DNA of 64,000 nt from Streptomyces sp. CG1 (lineage in GTDB: Bacteria; Actinomycetota; Actinomycetes; Streptomycetales; Streptomycetaceae): positions 6,813,501-6,877,500 of the forward strand of contig NZ_CP163518.1 of NCBI RefSeq assembly GCF_041080625.1, in the 5' to 3' direction. The position numbers and the translations under genes were made by a program. The notes beneath the pieces were generated by a model. That model was not told the origin of the DNA. It saw only the letters and a program-made list of their open reading frames with translations, and ran no database searches. Within the stretch, counting starts at the first letter, position 1. Every line of letters begins with the position of its first letter. Of the stretch, positions 1,122-25,831 are shown piece by piece.

Positions 1122-1865
1122 GTGACTGCGATTCTCCAGGGCCGTACCCGCCGGGCCGCGCGGGCGACCGCCCTGTGCGCACTGGCCGTGACCGGGGTGG
1201 CGGTGCTGACGGCGTGCGGGAGCGATGATCCGGACGCGGGGACCAACGGCGTGGGCAAGCTGACCGCCGGCAAGATCCAGGCGAAGACACAGGCGGCGGC
1301 CTCGTCGGCGTCGGCGGTACGGCTGTCCGGGACGGTCGTCACCAGCGGCCGCACGTACCAGCTGGACATGCAGCTCAAGGCCGGCGGCGGAACCGGCTCG
1401 GTGACCTCGAAGGGGGCGACCTTCAAGCTGCTGCGGGTCGGTGAGCAGCTGTACCTGAAGGCCGACGCGGACTTCTGGAACCAGGCCGGCGGCCAGGGCG
1501 GCGACGCGGCCGGCACGTTGAACGGCAAGTACGTGAAGGTGCCGCAGGGGGATCCCGCGTACAAGAAGTTCAGTGGCTTCACGGACAAGGACGTCCTCCT
1601 CGAGGGACTGCTCTCACTGCACGGCACGTTGGCGACGGACGGCCATCACGACGACTCGGGTACGCGCACCATCCGCATCACCGGCGACAAGGGCTCCGGC
1701 GGCAGCCTCGACGTGTCCCTGGAGGGCACCCCCTATCCGCTCCGCCTGGTCCGCGCCGGCGGAGCGGGCACGCTCAGCTTCTCCGACTGGGGCAAGGACT
1801 TCGCCGTGGCCGAGCCCGCACAGGATGAGACCGTCGACTACGGCAAGCAGCTGCCGGCGTCGTAG
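1122..1865 (+). CDS. LppX/LprG-like secreted lipoprotein
   Basis: 247 residues. The N-terminus is a textbook lipoprotein signal: an Arg-rich n-region (GRTRRAARA), a hydrophobic core (ALCALAVTGVAVLTA) and lipobox LTAC with the modified Cys near residue 32. The mature protein (AGKIQAKTQAAASSASAVRLSGTVVTSG, described in pieces: helix then beta-rich segments such as TYQLDMQLKAGGGTGSVT and LLRVGEQLYLKADADFW) resembles the LppX/LprAFG or LolA-like fold, which carries lipids or glycolipids in a hydrophobic cavity. That ligand role is inferred from the fold. The open frame extends upstream, but GTG at 1122 is chosen because it places the signal peptide at the N-terminus and has a GAAAGG ribosome site about 11 nt upstream. 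It stands alone between divergent and convergent neighbours. Confidence 0.82.
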   Translation: MTAILQGRTRRAARATALCALAVTGVAVLTACGSDDPDAGTNGVGKLTAGKIQAKTQAAASSASAVRLSGTVVTSGRTYQLDMQLKAGGGTGSVTSKGATFKLLRVGEQLYLKADADFWNQAGGQGGDAAGTLNGKYVKVPQGDPAYKKFSGFTDKDVLLEGLLSLHGTLATDGHHDDSGTRTIRITGDKGSGGSLDVSLEGTPYPLRLVRAGGAGTLSFSDWGKDFAVAEPAQDETVDYGKQLPAS

Positions 1866-1908
1866 CGGTACGTTTCTCCGCCCCCGTCTCCGGTCTCCGC
1901 CCCCGGCG

Positions 1909-2424
1909 TTACCGTGCCTTCCGGCGCTTCACCAGAAGCTTCGGCAGGCCCGCGGGCAGCGGTCTGCGGGTGGTCGCCGGAGTCGCGACCGGAGCCTTTG
2001 CCAGGCTGTCCGAAGGCAACGGAACCGCAGACCCCGCCGGAGCCAGGCGCAGCACCCGGCACTCGCGTGCCCAGCGGGCCGGCATCTGTTCGCCGTCGGG
2101 GGCGTTCAGGCGCTTGCCCTTCAGCTCGGCGACAGCCGCCTCCCACTCGGCCGAACCGGCGGGCAGCTCGGACACGGTCGCCGGGAACGTCACCAGCCGG
2201 CCGCCCTTGTCCTTGCTGCGCACGGTCACCTCGGCGGATCCCCCGTCGACCAGCCCCTCCAGCGGCTGCTCACCGGGGCCGTCCCCGACGAGGCACACCG
2301 CACCCTCGTGCCACACGTGCCACAGCGCACACGCGGCCGAGACACCGGCGCCCCTGACCCAGATGAGGCCGGACTTCTTCGCGGCCTCCTCGATGAGGGC
2401 CCGCTCGAGCAGCTCGCTTGTCAT
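1909..2424 (-). CDS. Conserved hypothetical, possible PNPOx-like split-barrel protein
   Basis: 171 residues, soluble, with no signal peptide. The body (SGLIWVRGAGVSAACALWH, GAVCLVGDGPGEQPL, GGSAEVTVRSKDKGGRLVTF) alternates beta strands as in pyridoxamine 5'-phosphate oxidase-like flavin or heme-binding split barrels, but I see no diagnostic ligand motif, so the fold call is tentative. The last 30 residues are Pro/Arg/Lys-rich and end in KLLVKRRKAR, a basic tail that could touch nucleic acid or membrane. It starts 25 bp beyond the stop of corA on the same strand, so the two may be transcribed together, corA first. Codon use is typical of the region, which supports a real gene. Confidence 0.65.
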   Translation of the reverse strand: MTSELLERALIEEAAKKSGLIWVRGAGVSAACALWHVWHEGAVCLVGDGPGEQPLEGLVDGGSAEVTVRSKDKGGRLVTFPATVSELPAGSAEWEAAVAELKGKRLNAPDGEQMPARWARECRVLRLAPAGSAVPLPSDSLAKAPVATPATTRRPLPAGLPKLLVKRRKAR

Positions 2425-2448
2425 GTGCCCAGCCTATCCAGCGCCTGC

Positions 2449-3573
2449 TCACAGCCAGCCGTTGCGCTTCAGCACCCGGTGGATGCCGACGCACATGGCG
2501 ATGGTGAGACTCAGGACGAGCGGGTAGCCGTACTTCCAGTGCAGCTCCGGCATGTGGTCGAAGTTCATGCCGTACACACCGGTCACCATCGTCGGTACGG
2601 CGATGATCGCGGCCCAGGCGGTGATCTTGCGCATGTCCTCGTTCTGCGCGACGGACGCCTGCGCCAGGTTGGCCTGGAGGATGGAGTTGAGGAGTTCGTC
2701 GAAGCCCAGCACCTGCTCCTGGACCCGGGCGAGGTGGTCGGCGACGTCCCGGAAGTACTTCTGGATGTCCGGGTCGATCAGCCGCATCGGCCGCTCGCTC
2801 AGCAGCTGCATCGGGCGCAGCAGGGGAGCCACCGCGCGCTTGAACTCCAGCACCTCACGCTTGAGTTGGTAGATCTGTGCCGAGTCCACACCACGGGACA
2901 CCCCGCCCTTGCGGCCCGGCGAGAAGACCTCGGTCTCCACGGCGTCGATGTCGTCCTGCACCGCGTCGGCGACCGCGATGTAGCCGTCCACCACATGGTC
3001 GGCGATGGCGTGCAGCACCACCGAGGGGCCCTTGGCGAGCAGCTCCGGGTCGTCCTGCAGGCGGTGCCTGAGGGCCCTGAGCGAGCCCTTGCCGCCGTGC
3101 CGGACGGTGATGAAGAAGTCCCGGCCGGTGAAGCACATCACCTCGCCGGTCTCGACCACCTCGCTGTTGGCGGTGAGCCGGTCGTGCTCGACGTAGTGGA
3201 TGGTCTTGAAGACGGTGAAGAGCGAGTCGTCGTACCGCTCCAGCTTGGGCCGCTGGTGAGCCTGCACCGCGTCCTCGACGGCCAAGGGGTGCAGCCCGAA
3301 CTCGCTCGCGATACCGGCGAATTCGGCCTCGTTCGGCTCGTGCAGCCCGATCCACACGAAGCCGCCGTCCCGGCGTACCCGCCGCATCGCCTCGTGCGGG
3401 CTGAGCGGCCTGGCGCTGTCGACGCGGGTGCCGTCGCGGTAGACGGCGCAGTCCACGACGGCCGAGGGCATGGCGGGGTCACGGGTGGTGTCGTACGACG
3501 CCGTGCTCGCGTTCTTGCGCGGCGAGACACGGGACGGACGGACCGCGGCGCGCAGGTCGCGGATCATCGACAT
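2449..3573 (-). CDS. corA: CorA-family magnesium/cobalt transporter
   Basis: 374 residues. A long acidic cytoplasmic N-terminal domain is followed by a stalk helix and two C-terminal membrane segments. The signature YGMNFD loop, which forms the CorA pore entrance, lies at the end of TM1 (ITAWAAIIAVPTMVTGVYGMNFD); TM2 is YPLVLSLTIAMCVGIH, ending in a basic KRNGWL tail. CorA homopentamers let Mg2+ (and Co2+ or Ni2+) enter down the membrane potential and are gated by cytosolic Mg2+. The frame is open upstream, but ATG at 3573 has an AAGGAG site 8-9 nt before it and gives a normal length. The leader contains a strong hairpin (see 3653-3688). No Mg2+-riboswitch consensus was recognised. The PNPOx-like gene follows after 24 bp. 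Confidence 0.93.
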   Translation of the reverse strand: MSMIRDLRAAVRPSRVSPRKNASTASYDTTRDPAMPSAVVDCAVYRDGTRVDSARPLSPHEAMRRVRRDGGFVWIGLHEPNEAEFAGIASEFGLHPLAVEDAVQAHQRPKLERYDDSLFTVFKTIHYVEHDRLTANSEVVETGEVMCFTGRDFFITVRHGGKGSLRALRHRLQDDPELLAKGPSVVLHAIADHVVDGYIAVADAVQDDIDAVETEVFSPGRKGGVSRGVDSAQIYQLKREVLEFKRAVAPLLRPMQLLSERPMRLIDPDIQKYFRDVADHLARVQEQVLGFDELLNSILQANLAQASVAQNEDMRKITAWAAIIAVPTMVTGVYGMNFDHMPELHWKYGYPLVLSLTIAMCVGIHRVLKRNGWL

Positions 3574-3652
3574 GGGCAGGCTCCTTCGCGACAGGCAACG
3601 AAAGACCGCACGGCAACGGGTGGAACTACCCGGAATGGGGACGTCCTGACAA

Positions 3653-3688
3653 GGGGTCTCCCCGCCCTCAAGGCAGGGGAAGGATGTT
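3653..3688 (+). repeat. Hairpin resembling the right end of an IS605/IS1341 (TnpB) element
   Basis: CCCC-GCC (3660-3666) pairs with GGC-A-GGGG (3672-3679) around a CTCAA loop, followed by AAGGATGTTTGG. TnpB-carrying IS200/IS605 elements commonly end in a C-rich/G-rich hairpin followed by GGAGGATGTCAA-like sequence, and this copy resembles that layout. No tnpA or tnpB is nearby, so if related it is a relic. Alternatively it is an ordinary hairpin in the corA leader. Confidence 0.35.
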
Positions 3689-3787
3689 TGGCACGTCCAC
3701 AAAGCGGGGAGCACCGCACCGTCGCGGTGGCGACTTCGCCACTGATGCAGAACTGATTCAGATCAGCGGATCGAGCGATCAGACAGA

Positions 3788-4010
3788 TCAGGCAAAGCGA
3801 AAAGAAGTGCTCTTCCGATGGGCGATACGCACGAAGAGGCGGCAGTCAGCCAGAGAGCGGCCAGTGACTGGATCAGCGGGCGGAAGAGCGAGTGGTACTG
3901 CACGGTCGACTTCGATCCATGACAGCCCCACCTCCTCCGGCCGGTCCCTCGTAAGGGAGTCTCGGTGTCGGGACTTGACAGACACGCTCCGCGTGCCGTC
4001 CCGAACCATC
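3788..4010 (-). other. Possible small ORF or leader upstream of corA
   Basis: On the minus strand an ATG at 4010 opens a 73-codon frame ending at 3788. Inside it, GGAGGAGG (about 3933-3940) lies at good spacing before ATG 3925 in a second frame (15 codons). The predicted products have no recognisable domain and ordinary-looking GC3 only in part. It could encode a leader peptide for downstream corA or be non-coding. Included because the ribosome site is unusually strong for a region without a gene. Confidence 0.25.
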
Positions 4011-4083
4011 GGCTCAGCGTAGCAGCCGCCCGAACTGCCAAGGCGCCGCTTTGCCCGCACCTGACGAGTTCTATGCTCGCGGC

Positions 4084-16782: not shown

Positions 16783-18261
16783 GTGGGACGCCACAGCCGG
16801 CGGGGCCCGGCCCCCAAGGACGACTCCGCGGACATAACCGCCCACCGCAAACTCCAGCAGGACACCCGCCCGGGTGACGGCAGGAACGTTCCGGGGCAAG
16901 GGGGTGCGTCCGGGGCGCCGTACGGGGAAGGGGCGTACGGCGCTGCCGCGGCGCGGAGTGGGCAGCCGCTGTTGCCCGGGCAGCGGCAAGCGCCGATGGG
17001 CGGCACGCCGGCCCATGGCGTGCCGAGGCTTCCCGACGGGACTCCGGCGCACGGCGTGCCCCGGTTCCCCGACGGCACCCCCGCGCGCGGTGTGCCCCGT
17101 TTTCATGAGGGTGCTCCCGCTCGTGGTGGGCATCCCGAGCAGCGGGAAGCCGGTGGCGGCTGGGGTGAGTTCGCGGGGGCGGCCGGGCCCGGTGCCGTAC
17201 TTCCGCGGCAGCGGCCGGCGGAGCCGGGGGCAAGGCCCGGAGCCGGGCCTCGGCAGGAGTACCTCGACGCCTTCGCCGACGGGCGCGGCGGCCCGGCCGG
17301 GGCCGACGAGGACATCGACGTCTTCGCGCCCCGCAAGGCGGAGCCTCGCCCCGCCGAGGAGCGCCCGGCCGGCGCGCCGGAGGCAGGCGCCCCGGAAGGG
17401 GCGCGGGGAACCGCGCGAGCAACCACAGCGCACCCGCAGTCACGGGACGACGGATCCGCCTCCCAGGGAGCGCTTCGCGGCCGGACCCTCACGGGTATCG
17501 CCGCGGCCGCCGTCACCACCGTGCTCGCGGTGATCGTCGCCGGACAGGTGGCCAAGTCGCAGGACGCCGACGGCACGCAGTCGCGGTCCGCGTCCGACCA
17601 GGCGCGCGACGCGAGCCCCGAGGGCGGCCGGACCCCGTCCGCCTCGCCCGGCACGGTCGCGCTGTCGTACGAGCAGAAGATGGACCGGAAGTATCCGCTC
17701 AGCGTCACGCTGAAGGGCTCCGGGAAGTTCGACGCGGTGCCCGGTTTCGCCAAGGCGCCCGGCACCGGGCGGAAGTACACCTACCGCGTGGACGTCGAGC
17801 AGGGCATGGGTCTGGACGGCGAACTGTTCGCCGAGGCGGTGCAGAAGACCCTGAACGACGACCGCAGTTGGGCCCACGCGGGTGCCCGTACCTTCGAGCG
17901 GATCTCCTCCGGCAAGCCCGACTTCGTGATCACGCTGGCGAGCCCCGGTACGACCGCCCAGTGGTGCGCCAAGTCCGGGCTGGACACCACGGAGGACAAC
18001 GTCTCCTGTGACTCCGCCTCCACCGAACGAGTGATGATCAATGCATACAGGTGGGCCCAGGGCAGCGAGACATATGGGGACAAAATCTACCCCTACCGGC
18101 AGATGTTGATCAATCACGAGGTCGGCCACCGGCTCGGGTACGGCCATGTGAGCTGCCAGAAGAACGGCGAACTCGCTCCCGTCATGCAGCAGCAGACCAA
18201 GTTCCTCGACCATGACGGAATCCACTGTCTGCCCAACCCGTGGCCGTTTCCCACGAGTTGA
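16783..18261 (+). CDS. DUF3152 membrane-anchored metzincin-like protein
   Basis: 492 residues. The cytoplasmic N-terminal ~230 residues are disordered and contain a 12-residue tandem repeat (HGVPRFPDGTPA type, three copies). One membrane helix (LTGIAAAAVTTVLAVIVAGQ, ~residues 235-255) is followed by a Ser/Thr-rich linker and an extracytoplasmic DUF3152 domain. Near residue 445 it carries NHEVGHRLGYGHVSC, an HExxHxxGxxH zinc motif as in metzincin peptidases, so a secreted-side protease is likely though unproven. GTG 16783 is chosen as the first start after the upstream hydrolase stop (7-bp gap). Residues ~202-219 are encoded by a reversed copy of an intergenic repeat (copy C), an unusual origin for coding sequence. 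Confidence 0.82.
   Translation: MGRHSRRGPAPKDDSADITAHRKLQQDTRPGDGRNVPGQGGASGAPYGEGAYGAAAARSGQPLLPGQRQAPMGGTPAHGVPRLPDGTPAHGVPRFPDGTPARGVPRFHEGAPARGGHPEQREAGGGWGEFAGAAGPGAVLPRQRPAEPGARPGAGPRQEYLDAFADGRGGPAGADEDIDVFAPRKAEPRPAEERPAGAPEAGAPEGARGTARATTAHPQSRDDGSASQGALRGRTLTGIAAAAVTTVLAVIVAGQVAKSQDADGTQSRSASDQARDASPEGGRTPSASPGTVALSYEQKMDRKYPLSVTLKGSGKFDAVPGFAKAPGTGRKYTYRVDVEQGMGLDGELFAEAVQKTLNDDRSWAHAGARTFERISSGKPDFVITLASPGTTAQWCAKSGLDTTEDNVSCDSASTERVMINAYRWAQGSETYGDKIYPYRQMLINHEVGHRLGYGHVSCQKNGELAPVMQQQTKFLDHDGIHCLPNPWPFPTS
17014..17121 (+). repeat. Three 36-bp in-frame repeats in the DUF3152 gene
   Basis: Units at 17014, 17050 and 17086 encode HGVPRLPDGTPA, HGVPRFPDGTPA and RGVPRFHEGAPA. The divergence is mostly synonymous or conservative, suggesting older slippage kept in frame. 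Confidence 0.8.
17387..17439 (-). repeat. Intergenic repeat family, copy C, inside a coding sequence
   Basis: The reverse complement reads CTGCGGGTGCGCTGTGGTTG, then CTCGCGCGGTTCCCCGCGCC, then CCTTCCGGGGCGCC, aligning with copies A and B. Here it lies within the DUF3152 gene and is translated in the disordered region before the membrane helix. Confidence 0.6.
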
Positions 18262-18317
18262 CGGGCGCCGCTTACGTCACATTGACATGAGGCGCATGGT
18301 CGTTCATATTTCTGCGC

Positions 18318-18413
18318 ATGTGGTCTAGTCATGCCGTCCGTGAGAGCGCAGCCATCGAGCTGGCGCTCCTCGGTGTGACCGCACTCTGCGTGGCCGACAT
18401 TCACTGTCGCTGA
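18318..18413 (+). CDS. Putative 31-residue leader peptide of the peptide ABC operon
   Basis: ATG 18318 opens a 31-codon frame beginning MWSSHAVRESAAIELALLG and ending CVADIHCR, with two Cys and a His close to the C-terminus. The stop is followed at once by a small hairpin (ACGCCG/CGGCGT, 18413-18429) and 46 bp later by a perfect intrinsic terminator (18459-18483), after which the ABC operon begins at 18606. The layout is that of a ribosome-controlled attenuator, although no strong ribosome site precedes the ATG. A short overlapping frame from ATG 18296 (GAGG upstream) may initiate ribosomes first. The peptide itself is unrecognised; coding status is inferred. Confidence 0.45.
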   Translation: MWSSHAVRESAAIELALLGVTALCVADIHCR

Positions 18414-18458
18414 CGCCGCCTCCCGGCGTTTGCGTCGCGACTTTTCCTTTCTTCTCCG

Positions 18459-18483
18459 TCCGTGACCGTGGTCACGGATTTTT
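18459..18483 (+). terminator. Intrinsic terminator/attenuator before the ABC operon
   Basis: TCCGTGAC (18459-18466) pairs with GTCACGGA (18471-18478) around a CGTG loop and is followed by five T residues. It lies upstream of the operon, not after a long gene, so it probably attenuates leader transcription. The same 20 bp is also a near-perfect palindrome and could be an operator. Confidence 0.75.
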
Positions 18484-18605
18484 CGGCGACCCGGCGCCGG
18501 GGCCGACGTCTGCTCGCAGTCGTCTCACCCCTCGTCCACATGTCTCACTTTTCGAGAAGCCCTTGATCAGGGCCTCGATCATTTCCCCGAGAGGTCGTCA
18601 TTCCG

Positions 18606-20324
18606 ATGCGTCAACCGTCCGTCATAGCGCGCCGCGTGGCAGCGGCATCCGTCAGCCTGGTCGTGGCAGCGGGCGCCGCCGCCTGCGGCCCGAAGGACAA
18701 CGATGCCAAGGGCTCCGGTGGCGACTCCACGCCCCACAAGGGCGGCACCCTGACGGTGCTGAACTCCCAGCCGCAGACCGACTTCGACCCGGCCCGCCTC
18801 TACACCTCCGGCGGCGGAAACGTCCCTTCGCTGGTCTTCCGCACCCTCACCACGCGCAACCGCGAGAACGGCGCGGCCGGTTCCAAGGTCGTCCCCGACC
18901 TCGCCACCGACACCGGACGCCCCGACAAGGACGCGACCGTATGGACGTACACCTTGAAGAAGGGCCTCAAGTACGAGGACGGCACCCCGATCACCTCGGC
19001 CGACATCAAGTACGGCATCGAGCGCTCCTTCGCCCCCGAGCTGTCCGGCGGCGCGCCGTACCTGCGTGACTGGCTGGTCGGCGCCGCCGACTACCAGGGG
19101 CCGTACAAGGACAAGAAGGGGCTCTCGGCGATCGAGACGCCGGACGCGCGGACCATCGTCTTCCATCTGAACAAGCCCGAGGGCGAGTTCCCGTTCCTCG
19201 CCACCCAGACGCAGTTCACACCGGTGCCCAGGAGCAAGGACAACGGCACCAAGTACGAGGAGCACCCGATCTCGTCCGGCCCGTACAAGGTCGTCAAGAA
19301 CGAGAACGACGGCGAGCACGTGCTCCTCGCGCGCAACACGTACTGGTCGGCGGCCACCGACGCCGAGCGCAAGGCCTACCCGGACACCGTCGACGTCCGT
19401 TCCGGCCTCGACTCCTCCGTGATCAACCAGCGGTTGTCCGCGTCCCAGGGTGCGGACGCGGCCGCGGTCACCACGGACACCAACCTCGGACCGGCCGAAC
19501 TCGCCAAGGTCAGCGGCGACAAGGAACTCGCCGCGCGCGTGGGCACCGGCCACTTCGGCTACACGAACTACATCGCGTTCAACCCGACCGTGAAGCCGTT
19601 CGACAACCCGAAGGTGCGGGAGGCGATCGCCTACGCCGTCGACCGGTCCTCGGTGGTCAACGCGGCGGGCGGCAGCGCGCTCGCCGAGCCCGCCACCACG
19701 TTCCTGCCCCACCAGAAGTCCTTCGGCTACACGCCGTACGACCCGTTCCCGGCCGGCACCTCCGGCAACCCGGCCAAGGCCAGGGAGCTGCTCGCCCAGG
19801 CCGGTTACAAGAGCGGGCTCACCCTCACGCTGACCCACTCCAACGCCAAGGACTTCGAGACCAGCCCGGAGATCGCGACCGCCGTCCAGGACGCGCTCAA
19901 GAAGGCCGGGATCACGGTCAAGCTGCAGGGCCTGGAGGACAACGACTACCGGGACAAGATCCACAGTGTGAAGACCGAGCCCGGATTCTTCCTCGCGCAC
20001 TGGGGTGCCGACTGGCCCTCCGGCGGTCCCTTCCTGGCCCCGATCTTCGACGGCCGGCAGATCGTCAAGGATGGAGCCAACTTCAACACGGGCCTGCTCA
20101 ATGACAAGTCGGTCAATGACGAGATTGACGCGATCAACAAGTTGACCGACCTTGACACGGCCGCCCAGCGATGGGGTGCTCTGGACAAGAAGATCGGCGA
20201 GAAGGCCCTCGTCGTGCCGCTGTTCCACCCGGTCTACAAGCGTTTGTACGGCTCGGACGTCAAGAACATCGTCATCAGCGACTGGACCGGCGTGCTGGAC
20301 ATCTCCCAGGTCGCGGTGAAGTGA
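18606..20324 (+). CDS. ABC transporter family 5 substrate-binding lipoprotein
   Basis: 572 residues. The signal peptide has a twin-Arg-like n-region (IARRVAAASVSL) and a lipobox AAAC with the anchoring Cys at about residue 27. The SBP_bac_5 fold is evident: GGTLTVLNSQPQTDFDPA, TYTLKKGLKYEDGTPITSAD, the NPTVKPFDNPKVREAIAYAV hinge segment and, late, FFLAHWGADWPSGGPFLAPI. The family binds oligopeptides, dipeptides or related solutes outside the membrane for import. Its ligand is not deducible. ATG 18606 starts the operon SBP-DppC-DppB-ATPase with gaps of 4, -4 and -4 bp. Regulation probably involves the upstream leader ORF and terminator. Confidence 0.92.
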   Translation: MRQPSVIARRVAAASVSLVVAAGAAACGPKDNDAKGSGGDSTPHKGGTLTVLNSQPQTDFDPARLYTSGGGNVPSLVFRTLTTRNRENGAAGSKVVPDLATDTGRPDKDATVWTYTLKKGLKYEDGTPITSADIKYGIERSFAPELSGGAPYLRDWLVGAADYQGPYKDKKGLSAIETPDARTIVFHLNKPEGEFPFLATQTQFTPVPRSKDNGTKYEEHPISSGPYKVVKNENDGEHVLLARNTYWSAATDAERKAYPDTVDVRSGLDSSVINQRLSASQGADAAAVTTDTNLGPAELAKVSGDKELAARVGTGHFGYTNYIAFNPTVKPFDNPKVREAIAYAVDRSSVVNAAGGSALAEPATTFLPHQKSFGYTPYDPFPAGTSGNPAKARELLAQAGYKSGLTLTLTHSNAKDFETSPEIATAVQDALKKAGITVKLQGLEDNDYRDKIHSVKTEPGFFLAHWGADWPSGGPFLAPIFDGRQIVKDGANFNTGLLNDKSVNDEIDAINKLTDLDTAAQRWGALDKKIGEKALVVPLFHPVYKRLYGSDVKNIVISDWTGVLDISQVAVK

Positions 20325-20328
20325 CGCC

Positions 20329-21339
20329 GTGAGTGAGGCACTTGTCGCCGTCGAGACCGCCGGGGCGGACACCGCCGTCCCGGTGGTCTCGGGGGCACGT
20401 CAGTTCTGGCGGCGGCTGCGTGCGCAGCGCGCCGCCCTGGTCGCCGCGGCCGTCGTCGCGCTGCTCGTCCTGATCGCGCTCGCCGCGCCGCTGCTCACCG
20501 CGCTGGAGGGCCAGGACCCCACCACGTACCACCCGTCCCTGATCGACTCCGCGCGCGGGGGCGTGCCCATCGGCTCCTTCGGCGGTATCAGCGCCGACCA
20601 CTGGCTGGGCGTCGAACCGCAGACCGGACGCGACATGTTCGCCCGGCTGGTCTACGGGGCGCGGGTGTCGCTGGGGGTGGCGCTGGCGGCGACGGTGGTA
20701 CAGGTCGCCATCGGCGTCGCCGTCGGTGTGGCCTCCGCGCTCGGCAACCGATGGGTTGATCAACTGTTGAGCCGGGCAACGGACATCATCGTCGCGATGC
20801 CGCTGATGATCATGTCGTTGGCGTTGCTGGCGATCGTGCCGTCGAGCTTCCCGCGGCCCGTCCTGGTCACCCTTGTCATCGGCCTGATCGCCTGGGGCAC
20901 CGTCGCGAAGATCGTGCGGGCCCAGACCCTCTCGATGAAGGGCCTCGACTACGTCTTGGCGGCCCGCCTGAGCGGCTGGGGCGCCTGGCGGATCGCCCGC
21001 CGTGAACTGCTGCCCGGACTCGCCGCACCCGTCATCACCTATGCGGCGCTGCTCGTGCCCACGAACATCTCGGTCGAGGCGGCCCTGTCCTTCCTCGGCG
21101 TGGGCGTGAAGCCCCCGACACCCTCCTGGGGACAGATGCTCACCGCCGCCGACGTCTGGTACCAGGCCGCGCCGCAGTACCTGCTGCTCCCGGCCGGCGC
21201 TCTGTTCGTCACCGTCCTCGCCCTCACCGTCCTGGGCGACGGCGTGCGCACCGCCCTCGACCCGCGCGCCGCCTCGCGCCTTCGCGTCGGCACCGGTCGC
21301 AAGGAGTCCGCAGCGGGCGAGAAGGAGGCAACCGCATGA
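20329..21339 (+). CDS. ABC peptide-type permease (DppC-like)
   Basis: 336 residues. A cytoplasmic N-terminus is followed by TM1 (LVAAAVVALLVLIALAAPLL), a long external loop and the BPD-transport core of five more segments. The family-specific EAA loop is visible as VLAARLSGWGAWRIARRELL, where the ATPase docks, and LSFLGVGVKPPTPSWGQML is typical of DppC/OppC proteins. GTG 20329 lies 4 bp after the binding-protein stop. The gene overlaps the next permease by ATGA, so the two are translationally coupled. The usual order in this family is B then C; here C precedes B. Confidence 0.9.
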   Translation: MSEALVAVETAGADTAVPVVSGARQFWRRLRAQRAALVAAAVVALLVLIALAAPLLTALEGQDPTTYHPSLIDSARGGVPIGSFGGISADHWLGVEPQTGRDMFARLVYGARVSLGVALAATVVQVAIGVAVGVASALGNRWVDQLLSRATDIIVAMPLMIMSLALLAIVPSSFPRPVLVTLVIGLIAWGTVAKIVRAQTLSMKGLDYVLAARLSGWGAWRIARRELLPGLAAPVITYAALLVPTNISVEAALSFLGVGVKPPTPSWGQMLTAADVWYQAAPQYLLLPAGALFVTVLALTVLGDGVRTALDPRAASRLRVGTGRKESAAGEKEATA

Positions 21340-22334
21340 GCGGCTTCGGTGGATTCCTGCTGCGCCGGGCCGTGGGCACGGTGGTCACCCTGCTCGCCAT
21401 CTCGGTGATCGTCTACGTCGTCTTCTACGTCACCCCCGGCAACGTCGCCCAGATCACCTGCGGCCCGCGCTGCTCCCCGGAGCAGGTGCACCAGGTCGCC
21501 GCACAGCTGAGACTGGGTGACCCGCTCTACCTGCGCTACTGGCACTTCCTGCAGGGCCTCTTCATCGGCCAGGACTTCTCCACGGGCACCTCGGTGGAGC
21601 ACTGCGCGGCTCCCTGCCTGGGGCAGTCGTACCAGACCGGCCAGCAGGTCCTGGACATCATCCTGACCAAGCTGCCCGTCAGCCTGTCGCTCGTCCTCGG
21701 AGCCATGGTGCTGTGGCTGGTCCTCGGCGTCGGCACCGGTGTCCTGTCCGCGTGGCGGCGCGGCCGGATCTCCGAGCGGGTGCTGACCGCCGTCACCCTC
21801 GCGGGCACGGCCACGCCCGTCTTCGTCATCGGCCTCGTCCTGATGATCGTCGTCTGCGGCGAACTCCAGCTGCTGCCCTTCCCGGAGTACGTGAACTTCA
21901 CCGACGATCCGGAGCAGTGGGCCTGGAACCTGCTGCTGCCCTGGCTCTCCCTCGCGCTGATCGAGGCCGCCGCCTTCGCCCGCCTCACCAGGGCCGCCAT
22001 GCTGGAGACCCTGGCGGAGGACCATATCCGCACCTTCCGTGCGTACGGCGCCGGGGAGCGGTCCATCGTCGGCCGGCACGCGCTGCGCGGCGCCCTGGCG
22101 CCCGTCATCGCGCTGAACGCCAACAACGCCGGCTCCGCGGTCGGTGGTGCCGTCCTCACCGAGACCCTGTTCGGCATGCCCGGCATCGGCCAGGAGCTGG
22201 TGCACGCGGTGAAGGTCGTCGATCTGCCGGTGGTCGTCGGCGTGGTCCTGGTCATCGGTTTCTTCGTGGTCCTCGCCAACGCCGTCGCGGACGTCCTGTA
22301 CGCGGTGGCCGACCGACGGGTGGTGCTCGCATGA
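21336..22334 (+). CDS. ABC peptide-type permease (DppB-like)
   Basis: 332 residues. FLLRRAVGTVVTLLAISVIVY is the first membrane helix, as in DppB/OppB. The large periplasmic loop between TM1 and TM2 carries paired Cys (ITCGPRCSPE and HCAAPCLG) that could form external disulfides. The EAA motif appears as RTFRAYGAGERSIVGRHALR, and ETLFGMPGIGQELVHAVKV is the family C-terminal signature. It forms the heterodimeric channel with the DppC-like protein. Overlaps of 4 bp at both ends show tight translational coupling. Confidence 0.9.
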   Translation: MSGFGGFLLRRAVGTVVTLLAISVIVYVVFYVTPGNVAQITCGPRCSPEQVHQVAAQLRLGDPLYLRYWHFLQGLFIGQDFSTGTSVEHCAAPCLGQSYQTGQQVLDIILTKLPVSLSLVLGAMVLWLVLGVGTGVLSAWRRGRISERVLTAVTLAGTATPVFVIGLVLMIVVCGELQLLPFPEYVNFTDDPEQWAWNLLLPWLSLALIEAAAFARLTRAAMLETLAEDHIRTFRAYGAGERSIVGRHALRGALAPVIALNANNAGSAVGGAVLTETLFGMPGIGQELVHAVKVVDLPVVVGVVLVIGFFVVLANAVADVLYAVADRRVVLA

Positions 22335-23923
22335 GCCTGGTCGAAGTCACGGACCTGACAGTCGAGTTCGGCTCCCTGCGGGCCGTGGACGGACTCTCCT
22401 TCAGTCTGGCCAAGGGCGCCGCACTGGCCCTCGTCGGCGAGTCCGGCTCCGGCAAGTCCACGGTCGCGGGCGCCCTGCTGGGTCTGCACCGGGGCACGGG
22501 GGCCCGGGTCACCGGCTCGCTCCACGTGGCCGGCACGGACGTACACGCCGCTCCGGACGAGGAGTTGCGACGGCTGCGCGGTGCCAAGGCCGCCATGGTC
22601 TTCCAGGACCCGCTGTCCTCGCTCGACCCGTACTACGCGATCGGCGACCAGATCGCCGAGGTCTATCGTGTGCACACGCGCGTGCCGCGTCGTACCGCAC
22701 GCGCGCGTGCCGTGGAGGTGCTGGAGCGGGTTGGAATTCCGGACGCGGTACGGCGCTCCCGGTCCCGGCCGCACGAGTTCAGCGGCGGCATGCGCCAGCG
22801 CGCCCTCATCGCCATGGCGCTCGCCTGTGAGCCGGACCTGCTGATCGCCGACGAGCCGACCACCGCCCTCGACGTCACCGTCCAGGCGCAGATCCTGGAC
22901 CTGCTGCACACGCTGCGCGAGGAGACCGGCATGGGCCTGCTGCTCGTCACGCACGACGTGGGCGTCGCCGCCGAGAGCGTGGACGACCTTCTCGTGATGC
23001 GGCACGGCAGGGCCGTCGAGCACGGCTCCGTCGGCACGGTCCTCGCGGTGCCCGCCGAGGCGTACACCCGCGAACTCCTCGACGCCGTCCCGCGCGTGGA
23101 CGCCCGCCGTACCGGCTCCCAGGCCGCCGACGAGGTCGTGCTGGAGGCCACCGGACTGCGGCGTGAGTTCGGGCGCGGCAAGCGGGCGTTCGCGGCCGTG
23201 GACGACGTCTCGCTGACCGTCCGCCGGGGCGAGACCCTCGGTGTGGTCGGTGAGAGCGGCAGCGGCAAGACCACGCTCGGCCGGATGCTGGTCGGGCTGC
23301 TGGAGCCGACCGCCGGCGCGATCCGCTACGCGGACCGCCCGCACACCGGCGTGAACCCGGCCGTCCAGATGGTCTTCCAGGACCCCGTCTCCTCCCTCAA
23401 CCCCCGCCGCAGCGTGGGCGAGTCCATCGCCGACCCGCTACGCGCGCGTGGAGAACGCGATGAGCAGCGCATCCGGGGGCGCGTGACGGAACTGCTGGAG
23501 CGCGTGGGGCTCGACAGGGCGCACTACGACCGCTACCCGCACGAGTTCAGCGGCGGCCAGCGCCAGCGCATCGGCATCGCCCGGGCGCTCGCCGCCGAAC
23601 CGCGCGTCATCGTCTGCGACGAGCCGGTCTCCGCGCTCGACGTGACCACACAGGCCCAGGTGGTCGAGCTGCTCGGCGAACTCCAGCGGGAGCTCGGCCT
23701 CGCGCTGGTCTTCATCGCCCACGACCTCGCCGTCGTACGGCAGGTCAGCGACCGGGTCGCGGTGATGCGCCGGGGCCGGATCGTCGAGTACGGGCCGGCC
23801 GACGAGGTGTACGACAGCCCGCGCGAGCCGTACACCAGGCAGCTCCTGGCCGCCGTACCCGCGCTCGATCCGGAGCTGGCGGCCCAGCGGCGCGCGGCCC
23901 GGCGGGAGCCGGTCGTGGCGTAA
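22331..23923 (+). CDS. Fused two-domain peptide-type ABC ATPase (DppD-DppF-like)
   Basis: 530 residues, two complete ATPase halves. First half: Walker [11 protein letters not shown]-loop FQDPLSS, signature FSGGMRQR, Walker [10 protein letters not shown]-loop VTHD. Second half: [45 protein letters not shown] and IAHDLAVV. These are usually separate DppD and DppF subunits; here one chain carries both, a common variant in actinobacteria. It energises solute import through the two permeases. ATG 22331 overlaps the permease stop by 4 bp. The last gene of the operon, it is followed by a 15-bp-stem terminator. Confidence 0.92.
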
Positions 23924-24010
23924 CGTTTTGTGCTTGGTTGATCGCCGTATGAAGCCCTAGCGCGGCGGAACGCGACCCGCACGCGAAAGTTACGACCGTT
24001 CACCCCTTTT

Positions 24011-24044
24011 GGTGGTGCGACGGACAACCGTCCGTCGCACCACC
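24011..24044. terminator. Perfect 15-bp-stem terminator after the ABC operon
   Basis: GGTGGTGCGACGGAC (24011-24025) pairs with GTCCGTCGCACCACC (24030-24044) around AACC. It separates the ABC operon from the glycosyltransferase operon that starts at 24125. Confidence 0.85.
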
Positions 24045-24124
24045 GCCTTGTCCCCTTACGTTCGTCCCGCTGCGAGCCGCCGGGACAACGGTGGCTCCCC
24101 AGACGGGAGATCGGGGGTGCACAC

Positions 24125-25831
24125 GTGCGCATCGGAATACTTACGGAGGGTGGCTATCCGTATGTGAGCGGTGATGCCGGACTCTGGTGCGACCGGCTCG
24201 TGCGCGGGCTCGAGCAGCACGAGTTCGACATCTACGCGCTCAGTCGCAGCCGGCGCCAGGAGGAGGACGGCTGGGTCCCGCTCCCGCCGCAGGTCGACCG
24301 AGTACGGACGGCGCCGCTGTGGACGTCCGAGGACGACGGGGTCACGTACGGGCGGCGCGCGCGCCGGCGCTTCACCGAGTGCTACGGCGAACTCGTCGGG
24401 GCCATGTGCGCCGGGACCGGCGTCGACGCCGCCTCCGAGGGTGCGGCCACCGATCTGCCGGACCGTTTCGGCAGCGCGCTGTACGGACTCGCCGAACTCG
24501 CCCGAGAGCAGGGCGGACTCGTCGGCGCCCTGCGCTCGGACGCCGCTGTGCACGTCCTCGAACGCGCCTGTCGCGCCCCTGGCGCGCTGCGCACGGCGCA
24601 CGAGGCGCGCGTACCCGATCTGCTCACCGTCATCGCGCACCTCGAACGCGCCCTGCGCCCCCTCTCGCTCGACTGGTACGGCGACGACGGCCTCGGCGCG
24701 GCCGACCTCTGTCACGCCGCCGCCGGCGGCTCCGCCGCCCTGCCCGGGCTGCTCGCCCGGCACTTCTCCGACGTGCCGCTGCTCGTCACCGAGTACGGCG
24801 TACCGCTCCGCTCGCACTACCTGGCCCTCGGCCCGGACACCGCCGCCCCCGCCGTTCGTGCGCTGCTCGGCGCCTTCCAGGGCCGGCTCGCCGCGGAGGT
24901 CTACCGGCGGGCCGAGATCCTCACTCCCGGCAACGCCCACGCCCGCCGCTGGCAGGAACGGTGCGGCGCCGACCGGGCCCGCATCCGTACGGTCCATCCG
25001 GGCATGGACGCCGCCCGCTTCGCGGAGGCCGGCGAGGCCCCGGACCGCGCCGACCCGGACACGCTGATCTGGGTCGGGCGCGTCGAACCCGCCAAGGACC
25101 TCATCTCGCTGCTGCACGCCTTCGCCGAGGTCCGCAAGGAGGAGCCCAAGGCACGCCTCAGGATCGTCGGCGCGCCCTGCGGACCCGAGGGCGCGGCCTA
25201 CCTCGGCCACTGCCGGGCGCTCGCCGCACAGCTTTTCCCGGACGAGGCGGAGGGTGTGCACGCCGTCGGCGACAACCCGGTCTCCTTCGAGGAGATCGGC
25301 GGCCCGGAGGCCCCCACGCTGCCCGACGCGTACGCCGCCGGAGCGGTCGTCGTGCTGTCCAGCGTGGTCGAGGGCTTCCCGATCGGCCTCATCGAGGCCA
25401 TGTTCTGCGGCCGGGCCACGGTCTCCACCGATGTCGGCGCGGTGGTGGAGGTCATCGGGGGCACGGGACTCGTCGTGCCCCCGCGCAATCCGAGGGCGCT
25501 CGCGGAGGCGTGTTTGGCGCTGCTGCGCGACCCCGAGCGCCGTGAGCGCCTGGGCGCCGCCGCGCGCGCCCGCGCGCTCGAGCTGTTCACCGTCGAGCAG
25601 AACATCGCGGCATTTCACGGCATTTATCTGGAGATCGTCTCGCACTGTCCGGTCCGCCGGGTCGTCCTCGACGAGGCCGGCGCTCCTCTGCCGTTCGCCA
25701 CCCCCGCCGAGTCCCACGTCCCCGGCCGCTGGGCCGGCCCCACGGCCGGTGTCCTGCCCCGGACCGTCCCCGGCTGGGCCACGGCCACACCGGTACGCGC
25801 GACACCGCTGGCGGCTGCGGAGGGGGCGTGA
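24125..25831 (+). CDS. PelF-like GT4-family glycosyltransferase (DUF3492)
   Basis: 568 residues. The N-terminal ~270 residues (RIGILTEGGYPYVSGDAGLW onwards, with LVTEYGVPLRSHYL) match the DUF3492 module of PelF-type enzymes. The C-terminal half is a GT4 GT-B domain: LIWVGRVEPAKDLISLLHAF, the RIVGAPCG strand, and the donor-binding VLSSVVEGFPIGLIEAMFCG with the acidic ExxxxxE pattern. PelF from pseudomonads polymerises UDP-GlcNAc/GalNAc into the Pel polysaccharide, so a nucleotide-sugar polymerase or transferase is the best guess. GTG 24125 begins at the conserved TEGGYPY motif. It heads a five-gene operon, overlapping the next gene by GTGA. Confidence 0.82.
   Translation: MRIGILTEGGYPYVSGDAGLWCDRLVRGLEQHEFDIYALSRSRRQEEDGWVPLPPQVDRVRTAPLWTSEDDGVTYGRRARRRFTECYGELVGAMCAGTGVDAASEGAATDLPDRFGSALYGLAELAREQGGLVGALRSDAAVHVLERACRAPGALRTAHEARVPDLLTVIAHLERALRPLSLDWYGDDGLGAADLCHAAAGGSAALPGLLARHFSDVPLLVTEYGVPLRSHYLALGPDTAAPAVRALLGAFQGRLAAEVYRRAEILTPGNAHARRWQERCGADRARIRTVHPGMDAARFAEAGEAPDRADPDTLIWVGRVEPAKDLISLLHAFAEVRKEEPKARLRIVGAPCGPEGAAYLGHCRALAAQLFPDEAEGVHAVGDNPVSFEEIGGPEAPTLPDAYAAGAVVVLSSVVEGFPIGLIEAMFCGRATVSTDVGAVVEVIGGTGLVVPPRNPRALAEACLALLRDPERRERLGAAARARALELFTVEQNIAAFHGIYLEIVSHCPVRRVVLDEAGAPLPFATPAESHVPGRWAGPTAGVLPRTVPGWATATPVRATPLAAAEGA

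Follow-up and report, generated by a model that had tools for sequence, protein, structure and literature searches.

Several systems close to the locus reported here have been described. For mycobacterial cys operons, earlier work predicted candidate cysteine leaders that lack obvious terminators and suggested Rho (available portion of PMC1262725), and leaderless Cys-rich uORFs were proposed as attenuators (available portion of PMC4633059). In their accessible parts, PMC13236596 and PMC9094748 describe mycobacterial Cys-rich sORFs as cysteine-responsive regulators, both citing Canestrari 2020, which the former cites as showing that cysteine genes are controlled by translation attenuation in M. 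smegmatis. As far as the available part of PMC8079986 goes, most of the S. lividans leader peptides (leuL, trpL, ilvL, metL, and others) are leaderless, they precede amino-acid genes, and some are accompanied by terminators, features that recall our locus; however, none of the eight was called a cysteine leader by the authors. In the same part of that paper, the metL leader is presented as a methionine leader, although it has three Cys close to its C-terminus, where it ends in GARCMCRRMCAF.

We analysed a 64,000-nucleotide stretch of the Streptomyces sp. CG1 genome (the window), in which a leader ORF of 31 codons occupies positions 18318-18413; this and all other features of the window given below lie on the forward strand. 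Its translation, MWSSHAVRESAAIELALLGVTALCVADIHCR, matched the NCBIfam profile NF042937 ("Ms4533A family Cys-rich leader peptide", leader_Ms4533A) with 51.5 bits against a curated cut-off of 31 and over profile positions 1-30 of 30, and the profile search found it to be the sole match above the cut-off in the host genome. The ORF, with Cys and His near its C-terminus, had been called correctly in a preliminary description of this DNA; that description had placed the peptide in no recognised leader family, a view which the profile match overturns. In the translation, the Cys residues near the C-terminus are the putative sensor Cys (residue 30 of 31, codon UGU at 18405-18407) and one Cys six residues before it.

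Like the leader_Ms4533A family at large, the host leader is a short ORF before an importer operon with Cys near its stop codon, and it matches the whole profile above the cut-off. However, the family pattern is a sulfate ABC operon and a Cys run, whereas the host has a peptide-type importer (SBP_bac_5) and one sensor Cys. The mycobacterial polycysteine leaderless sORF attenuators are likewise short ORFs with Cys codons at their end, located before sulfur-supply genes, but the host leader carries no run of consecutive Cys codons before its stop and ends in VADIHCR; the sulfate-type members of the family end in VADVCCCC or VADVACCR. A trp-type attenuator shares with the host an intrinsic terminator between leader and operon (18458-18483, lineage-specific in the host), but it uses tandem regulatory codons, which the host, with its single UGU, does not have. 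Systems of this kind are already known; what we add is the association with a peptide-type importer across Streptomyces, the reliance on one UGU that does not vary, and one case before a sulfatase gene. Among the titles listed by literature searches, none dealt with the Streptomyces member, its importer link, the invariant UGU, or the sulfatase case.

The leader lies directly 5' of an ABC operon, from which it is separated by a UTR of 192 nt, in agreement with the earlier placement of these elements within 300 bp of the first ABC gene (18606). The operon encodes a lipoprotein substrate-binding protein (SBP; 18606-20324, SBP_bac_5 by Pfam), an ABC permease of the OppC/DppC/NikC type (20329-21339), a second permease of the OppB/DppB/NikB type (21336-22334), and a fused double ATPase of the peptide/nickel transporter type (22331-23923; ABC_tran and oligo_HPY). 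The Shine-Dalgarno (SD) sequence of the first gene is GAGAGG at 18589-18594, and similar sites were seen in relatives. In NCBIfam, the SBP and both permeases reached peptide and nickel models only below the cut-offs, and the ATPase passed one dipeptide and two nickel models (NF008453 and the NikD and NikE models). The closest solved relative of the SBP was 2wok (E 6.1e-80), an oligopeptide-binding protein of clavulanic acid biosynthesis, and the SBP was 97% identical to a protein in a Streptomyces record. Neither the NCBIfam and Pfam matches nor 2wok tell the cargo of the importer.

Upstream of the leader, TTGACA (18282-18287) and CATATT (18305-18310), separated by a 17-nt spacer, form the only sigma-70-type match that the promoter scan found within 17000-25000, and this promoter was also present in the upstream consensus of 186 sequences. 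The -10 box is 7 nt from the leader ATG, so the leader mRNA is expected to be leaderless. TTGAC occurred at most 45 nt upstream of 175 of 194 distinct Streptomyces-type leaders, compared to 1 of 22 others, and 155 of the 194 had a -10-like hexamer (any of six that we chose ourselves) 7 nt upstream of the leader start. Neither this promoter nor the known-family match had figured in the preliminary description.

The distribution of the leader was then compared with that of the operon. Among 100 genomes, the host included, NF042937 matched in 47 (45 above the cut-off), and SBP orthologues, taken as proteins with at least 53% identity and a score of 617 bits or more (against 424 bits for the next best match), were likewise present in 47. 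A search for such ORFs before homologous operons had been proposed earlier; it placed a leader just upstream in all 47 SBP-orthologue genomes, 46 via NF042937 and one (G068) via a custom HMM trained on the first 47 leaders. The 53 SBP-less genomes held one leader, in G078, located before a sulfate ABC operon. The reading frame, whose conservation the preliminary description had named as a test, is kept together with the promoter and the position in Streptomyces and two other genera of the order. Of 275 loci found, the best 80, all named, were kept, and each of them had a leader. In a sample of 295 genomes of the host genus, 144 had an NF042937 match (140 above the cut-off); evenly drawn samples gave 40 of 394 genomes for the class (36 above) and 13 of 396 for the phylum (11 above).

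The spacing between leader and SBP gene ranged from 94 to 313 nt (median 184.5). Counting repeats, 242 of 244 Streptomyces-type loci carried an SBP_bac_5 gene at most 500 nt from the leader; no SBP match lay that close in L253 or L266, and L265 had no leader. The leader of L266 (G684) is degenerate, ends in VADILRN without the sensor Cys, and is outside the 188-sequence set used below. After 9 of 267 loci without a detected SBP start were left out, the remaining 258 gave 188 distinct Streptomyces-type and 21 distinct sulfate-type leader-plus-UTR sequences. The groups named MW (that of the host), LC-VAD, and other were defined by peptide motif and not by a species tree. A DUF3152 gene upstream, matched over more than half its length, was present in just 4 of 70 loci, and we therefore make no claim on the upstream gene order.

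The sensor codon was UGU in 188/188 distinct Streptomyces-type and 19/21 sulfate-type sequences. The Cys codons upstream of it were UGC in 150 of 156 cases, and nine ORFs of the window used UGC 29 times and UGU 8 times. The upstream leader Cys was conserved in 143/188 sequences only. Across the last 18 codons of 175 leaders, the mean fraction of non-consensus bases was 0.078 at the first, 0.058 at the second, and 0.110 at the third codon position; in the VADI codons, Val and Ile varied chiefly at the third base (0.26 and 0.41), and Ala and Asp hardly varied. V, D, and the sensor C were invariant across 23 diverse members. In the predicted fold of the host group, the sensor UGU has a possible pairing partner in the ACA of the Asp-Ile codons before it, which could explain the UGU preference. 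Since the sulfate-type leaders also prefer UGU and no UGU-ACA helix is evident in them by eye, slower decoding of UGU may be an alternative cause.

The 23 loci outside the Streptomyces type represent 22 distinct places, L018 and L055 being identical. A sulfate-binding protein homologue was next to the leader in 22 of these loci, i.e. in 21 of the distinct places, and in one sulfate-type operon the SBP, CysT, CysW, and ATPase of a sulfate ABC transporter were all identified above the cut-offs (NCBIfam; Pfam). All the sulfate-type loci came from one genome family (f6), which we guess from its name to be the mycobacteria. In the remaining place (L280 of G245, about 1445-4026), a leader of 29.9 bits, just under the cut-off, precedes a sulfatase gene (PF00884, E 7.6e-63), and it was the only match among 35 genomes of its family. 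Since two of the three kinds of neighbour are plainly sulfur-related, the importer of the host probably supplies cysteine or sulfur, which this sequence comparison suggests and does not prove.

Taken together, we consider it very likely that this Ms4533A-family leader is a cysteine attenuator sensed by ribosomes on a leaderless mRNA and placed before a peptide-type ABC importer. The leader-peptide attenuator of an ABC operon put forward in the preliminary description thereby stands as the best reading; attenuation of the operon is suggested by the leader family and the comparative pattern, and cysteine as the signal by the family and the sulfur genes behind its other members. Transcription would begin at about the leader ATG, and ribosomes would translate the leader immediately. 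With ample Cys-tRNA they would complete the leader and depart, and expression of the operon would be low. With scarce Cys-tRNA a ribosome would halt at the lone UGU, two codons ahead of the stop, and cover the stop-codon hairpin, by which attenuation would be relieved and the operon expressed. More than one sensor codon would be expected if starvation is to be sensed, and this counts against our explanation.

Alternatively, the small ORF may be translated without sensing cysteine at all, its role lying in the peptide itself or in the passage of ribosomes. The conservation of the peptide (VAD-I/V-x-C) goes beyond the needs of codon counting and speaks for this reading, but coupling by reinitiation is unlikely over 94-313 nt, the family precedes unrelated sulfur genes, and the UGU is invariant; we regard it as quite improbable.

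Stable folds were observed at the leader in part of the relatives. In the host, the hairpin within the leader ORF (18328-18379) had -25.3 kcal/mol (z -2.58; stability equalled in 2 of 200 shuffles), and that spanning the Arg and stop codons and part of the sensor Cys codon (18406-18441) had -22.3 kcal/mol (z -5.40; equalled in 0 of 200). The small hairpin noted earlier at the stop codon is thus present, but it is larger than had been stated. The ORF-hairpin segment reached z <= -2 in 36/45 LC-VAD, 34/54 other Streptomyces-type, and 6/13 sulfate-type sequences, and the stop-hairpin segment in 33/45 LC-VAD and 9/16 sulfate-type sequences; in the other Streptomyces-type sequences the stop hairpin (12/54) was no better than a control segment (13/53). 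The median z of control segments in the UTR was -0.85 to 0.19.

When substitutions were redistributed on the tree, none of 50721 pairs was significant in 112 of the 117 LC-VAD sequences, nor was any pair in 179 leader ORFs, the ORF hairpin included; therefore, no covariation is claimed. In a partner-shuffle test of the stop hairpin, 0/1000 shuffles reached the observed value with 138 testable Streptomyces-type sequences (49 not testable), a result that is suggestive only, and 732/1000 did so with 14 sulfate-type sequences (7 not testable). The corresponding values were 35/1000 in the 85% set (39 testable, 36 not), 100/1000 in the 80% set (22 testable, 29 not), and 152/1000 in the 75% set (12 testable, 26 not). 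For 149 sequences of leader and 50 further nt (three leaders being left out for length), RNAalifold gave only two pairs because the alignment past the stop codon is gap-filled. No Rfam family was found in the window at gathering thresholds.

How the operon would be switched off in the host can be pictured at the SD. Stalled ribosomes in the 2020 study of Canestrari reportedly free the RBS. In the host group, the stop hairpin would form when no ribosome stalls, and a UTR block at 18484-18502, conserved in 52 MW-group sequences, would be left free to mask the SD; were a ribosome to stall, the 3' arm of this hairpin would hold the block and the SD would be unmasked. In the predicted MW-group fold, the 3' arm (18422-18437) can pair with 18484-18501 at a probability of about 0.3. 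The sequence also shows complementarity between 18485-18491 and the SD flank (18593-18599), a pairing that is not among the listed pairs of the predicted fold. However, the MW consensus fold pairs 18431-18442, likewise in the 3' arm, with the SD flank and the start codon at a probability of about 0.5, which would mask both during the stall and argues against a simple switch. Because the predicted consensus fold favours this opposite effect, we give SD masking somewhat less than an even chance of being the off switch in the host, and the terminator and Rho, treated below, a slightly lower one each.

With the stall site blocked, the predicted cost of opening the SD fell by more than 0.5 kcal/mol in 6/11 MW (2 higher), 7/34 other LC-VAD (10 higher), 14/54 other (7 higher), and 9/16 sulfate-type sequences (2 higher). 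However, a control block 75 nt further on gave an equal or greater mean drop in the MW and sulfate-type groups. Own SD/UTR duplexes were not clearly better than swapped ones, since 255, 1368, and 220 of 2000 permutations were as good in the three groups. These folding tests are unspecific and neither confirm nor exclude masking. Among LC-VAD UTRs with the SD flank GGTCGTC, G[AG]CGACC was present upstream in 84/105, compared to 3/12 without the flank, a comparison confounded by relatedness.

The leader ribosome may alternatively decide whether RNA polymerase halts at an intrinsic terminator, a form of the cysteine attenuator in which control is transcriptional. The terminator 18459-18483 with T5 in the preliminary description is real: fold and UTR scan place a terminator-like element at 18458-18483, with a 9-pair hairpin at 18458-18479 that closes a CGUG loop (-13.9 kcal/mol, z -2.36; stability reached or exceeded in 5 of 200 shuffles) and T5 at 18479-18483, the first T of which can pair with G18458. 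A standard terminator scan listed none within 17000-25000, where 2.2 were expected by chance on both strands, and it apparently misses this one because the stem takes up one T; our own scan detected it. Terminator-like elements were found in 31/52 MW and 23/66 remaining LC-VAD UTRs, compared to 2.7% and 5.8% of their base-shuffled versions, but in 1/70 other Streptomyces-type and 0/21 sulfate-type UTRs; the element is largely LC-VAD-specific and is not the conserved core. Moreover, the terminator and the stop hairpin occupy separate stretches, and the predicted folds of the host and MW sequences contain no antiterminator that clearly competes with the terminator and would be freed by a ribosome at the sensor codon. 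We therefore hold transcription attenuation of this kind to be rather unlikely. In the non-LC-VAD Streptomyces-type UTRs, e.g. L031, a long-loop hairpin GCCGCGCC...GGCGCGGC followed by ATTTC recurs by eye and is possibly a different terminator.

Rho could perform the same task by loading on the C-rich UTR once the leader ribosome departs, a stalled ribosome hindering it. This form of the attenuator was proposed earlier for the mycobacterial cys leaders (available portion of PMC1262725), and it fits the composition of the UTRs. C exceeded G in 188/188 Streptomyces-type UTRs (mean C 0.415, G 0.257), and the C-G skew of the UTR stood at the median 95th percentile of same-strand windows per locus (77 loci, minimum 71st), control windows that were mostly coding DNA. 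However, C-rich leaders are not specific to Rho, and we judge its involvement unlikely.

A broader and only tentative reading is that one ancestral cysteine-sensing leader was set before unrelated sulfur-supply systems (sulfate ABC, peptide-type ABC, and sulfatase) of different actinobacteria, and that the Streptomyces version senses via one invariant UGU and the conserved nascent peptide VAD-I/V-x-C, which would make it resemble an arrest peptide more than a polycysteine counter. If this is true, the orphan importer would be a sulfur importer of the cysteine or glutathione type. The analysis provides a testable function for an ABC importer whose leader was matched in the 144 sampled genomes of the genus mentioned above, and it suggests that one sensor may be common to unrelated sulfur-supply systems. 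The invariant single UGU offers a clean handle on how one codon reports the cysteine supply.

Two further features were observed in the UTRs and leaders. The host UTR carries two GTCTCA repeats (18522-18527 and 18542-18547) that are conserved in relatives. GTCTCA occurred in 173 copies in 109 of 188 distinct UTRs, compared to 5 copies in shuffles, and TGAGAC was present only twice; GTCTC[AG] was found at least two times in 104/117 LC-VAD UTRs and in 1/71 others. In two genomes of another family, related leaders end in VSDVLCHWR (L293, G109) and VSDVLCSWR (L294, G087), and the leader of G087 is followed by a 98-aa ORF without assigned function.
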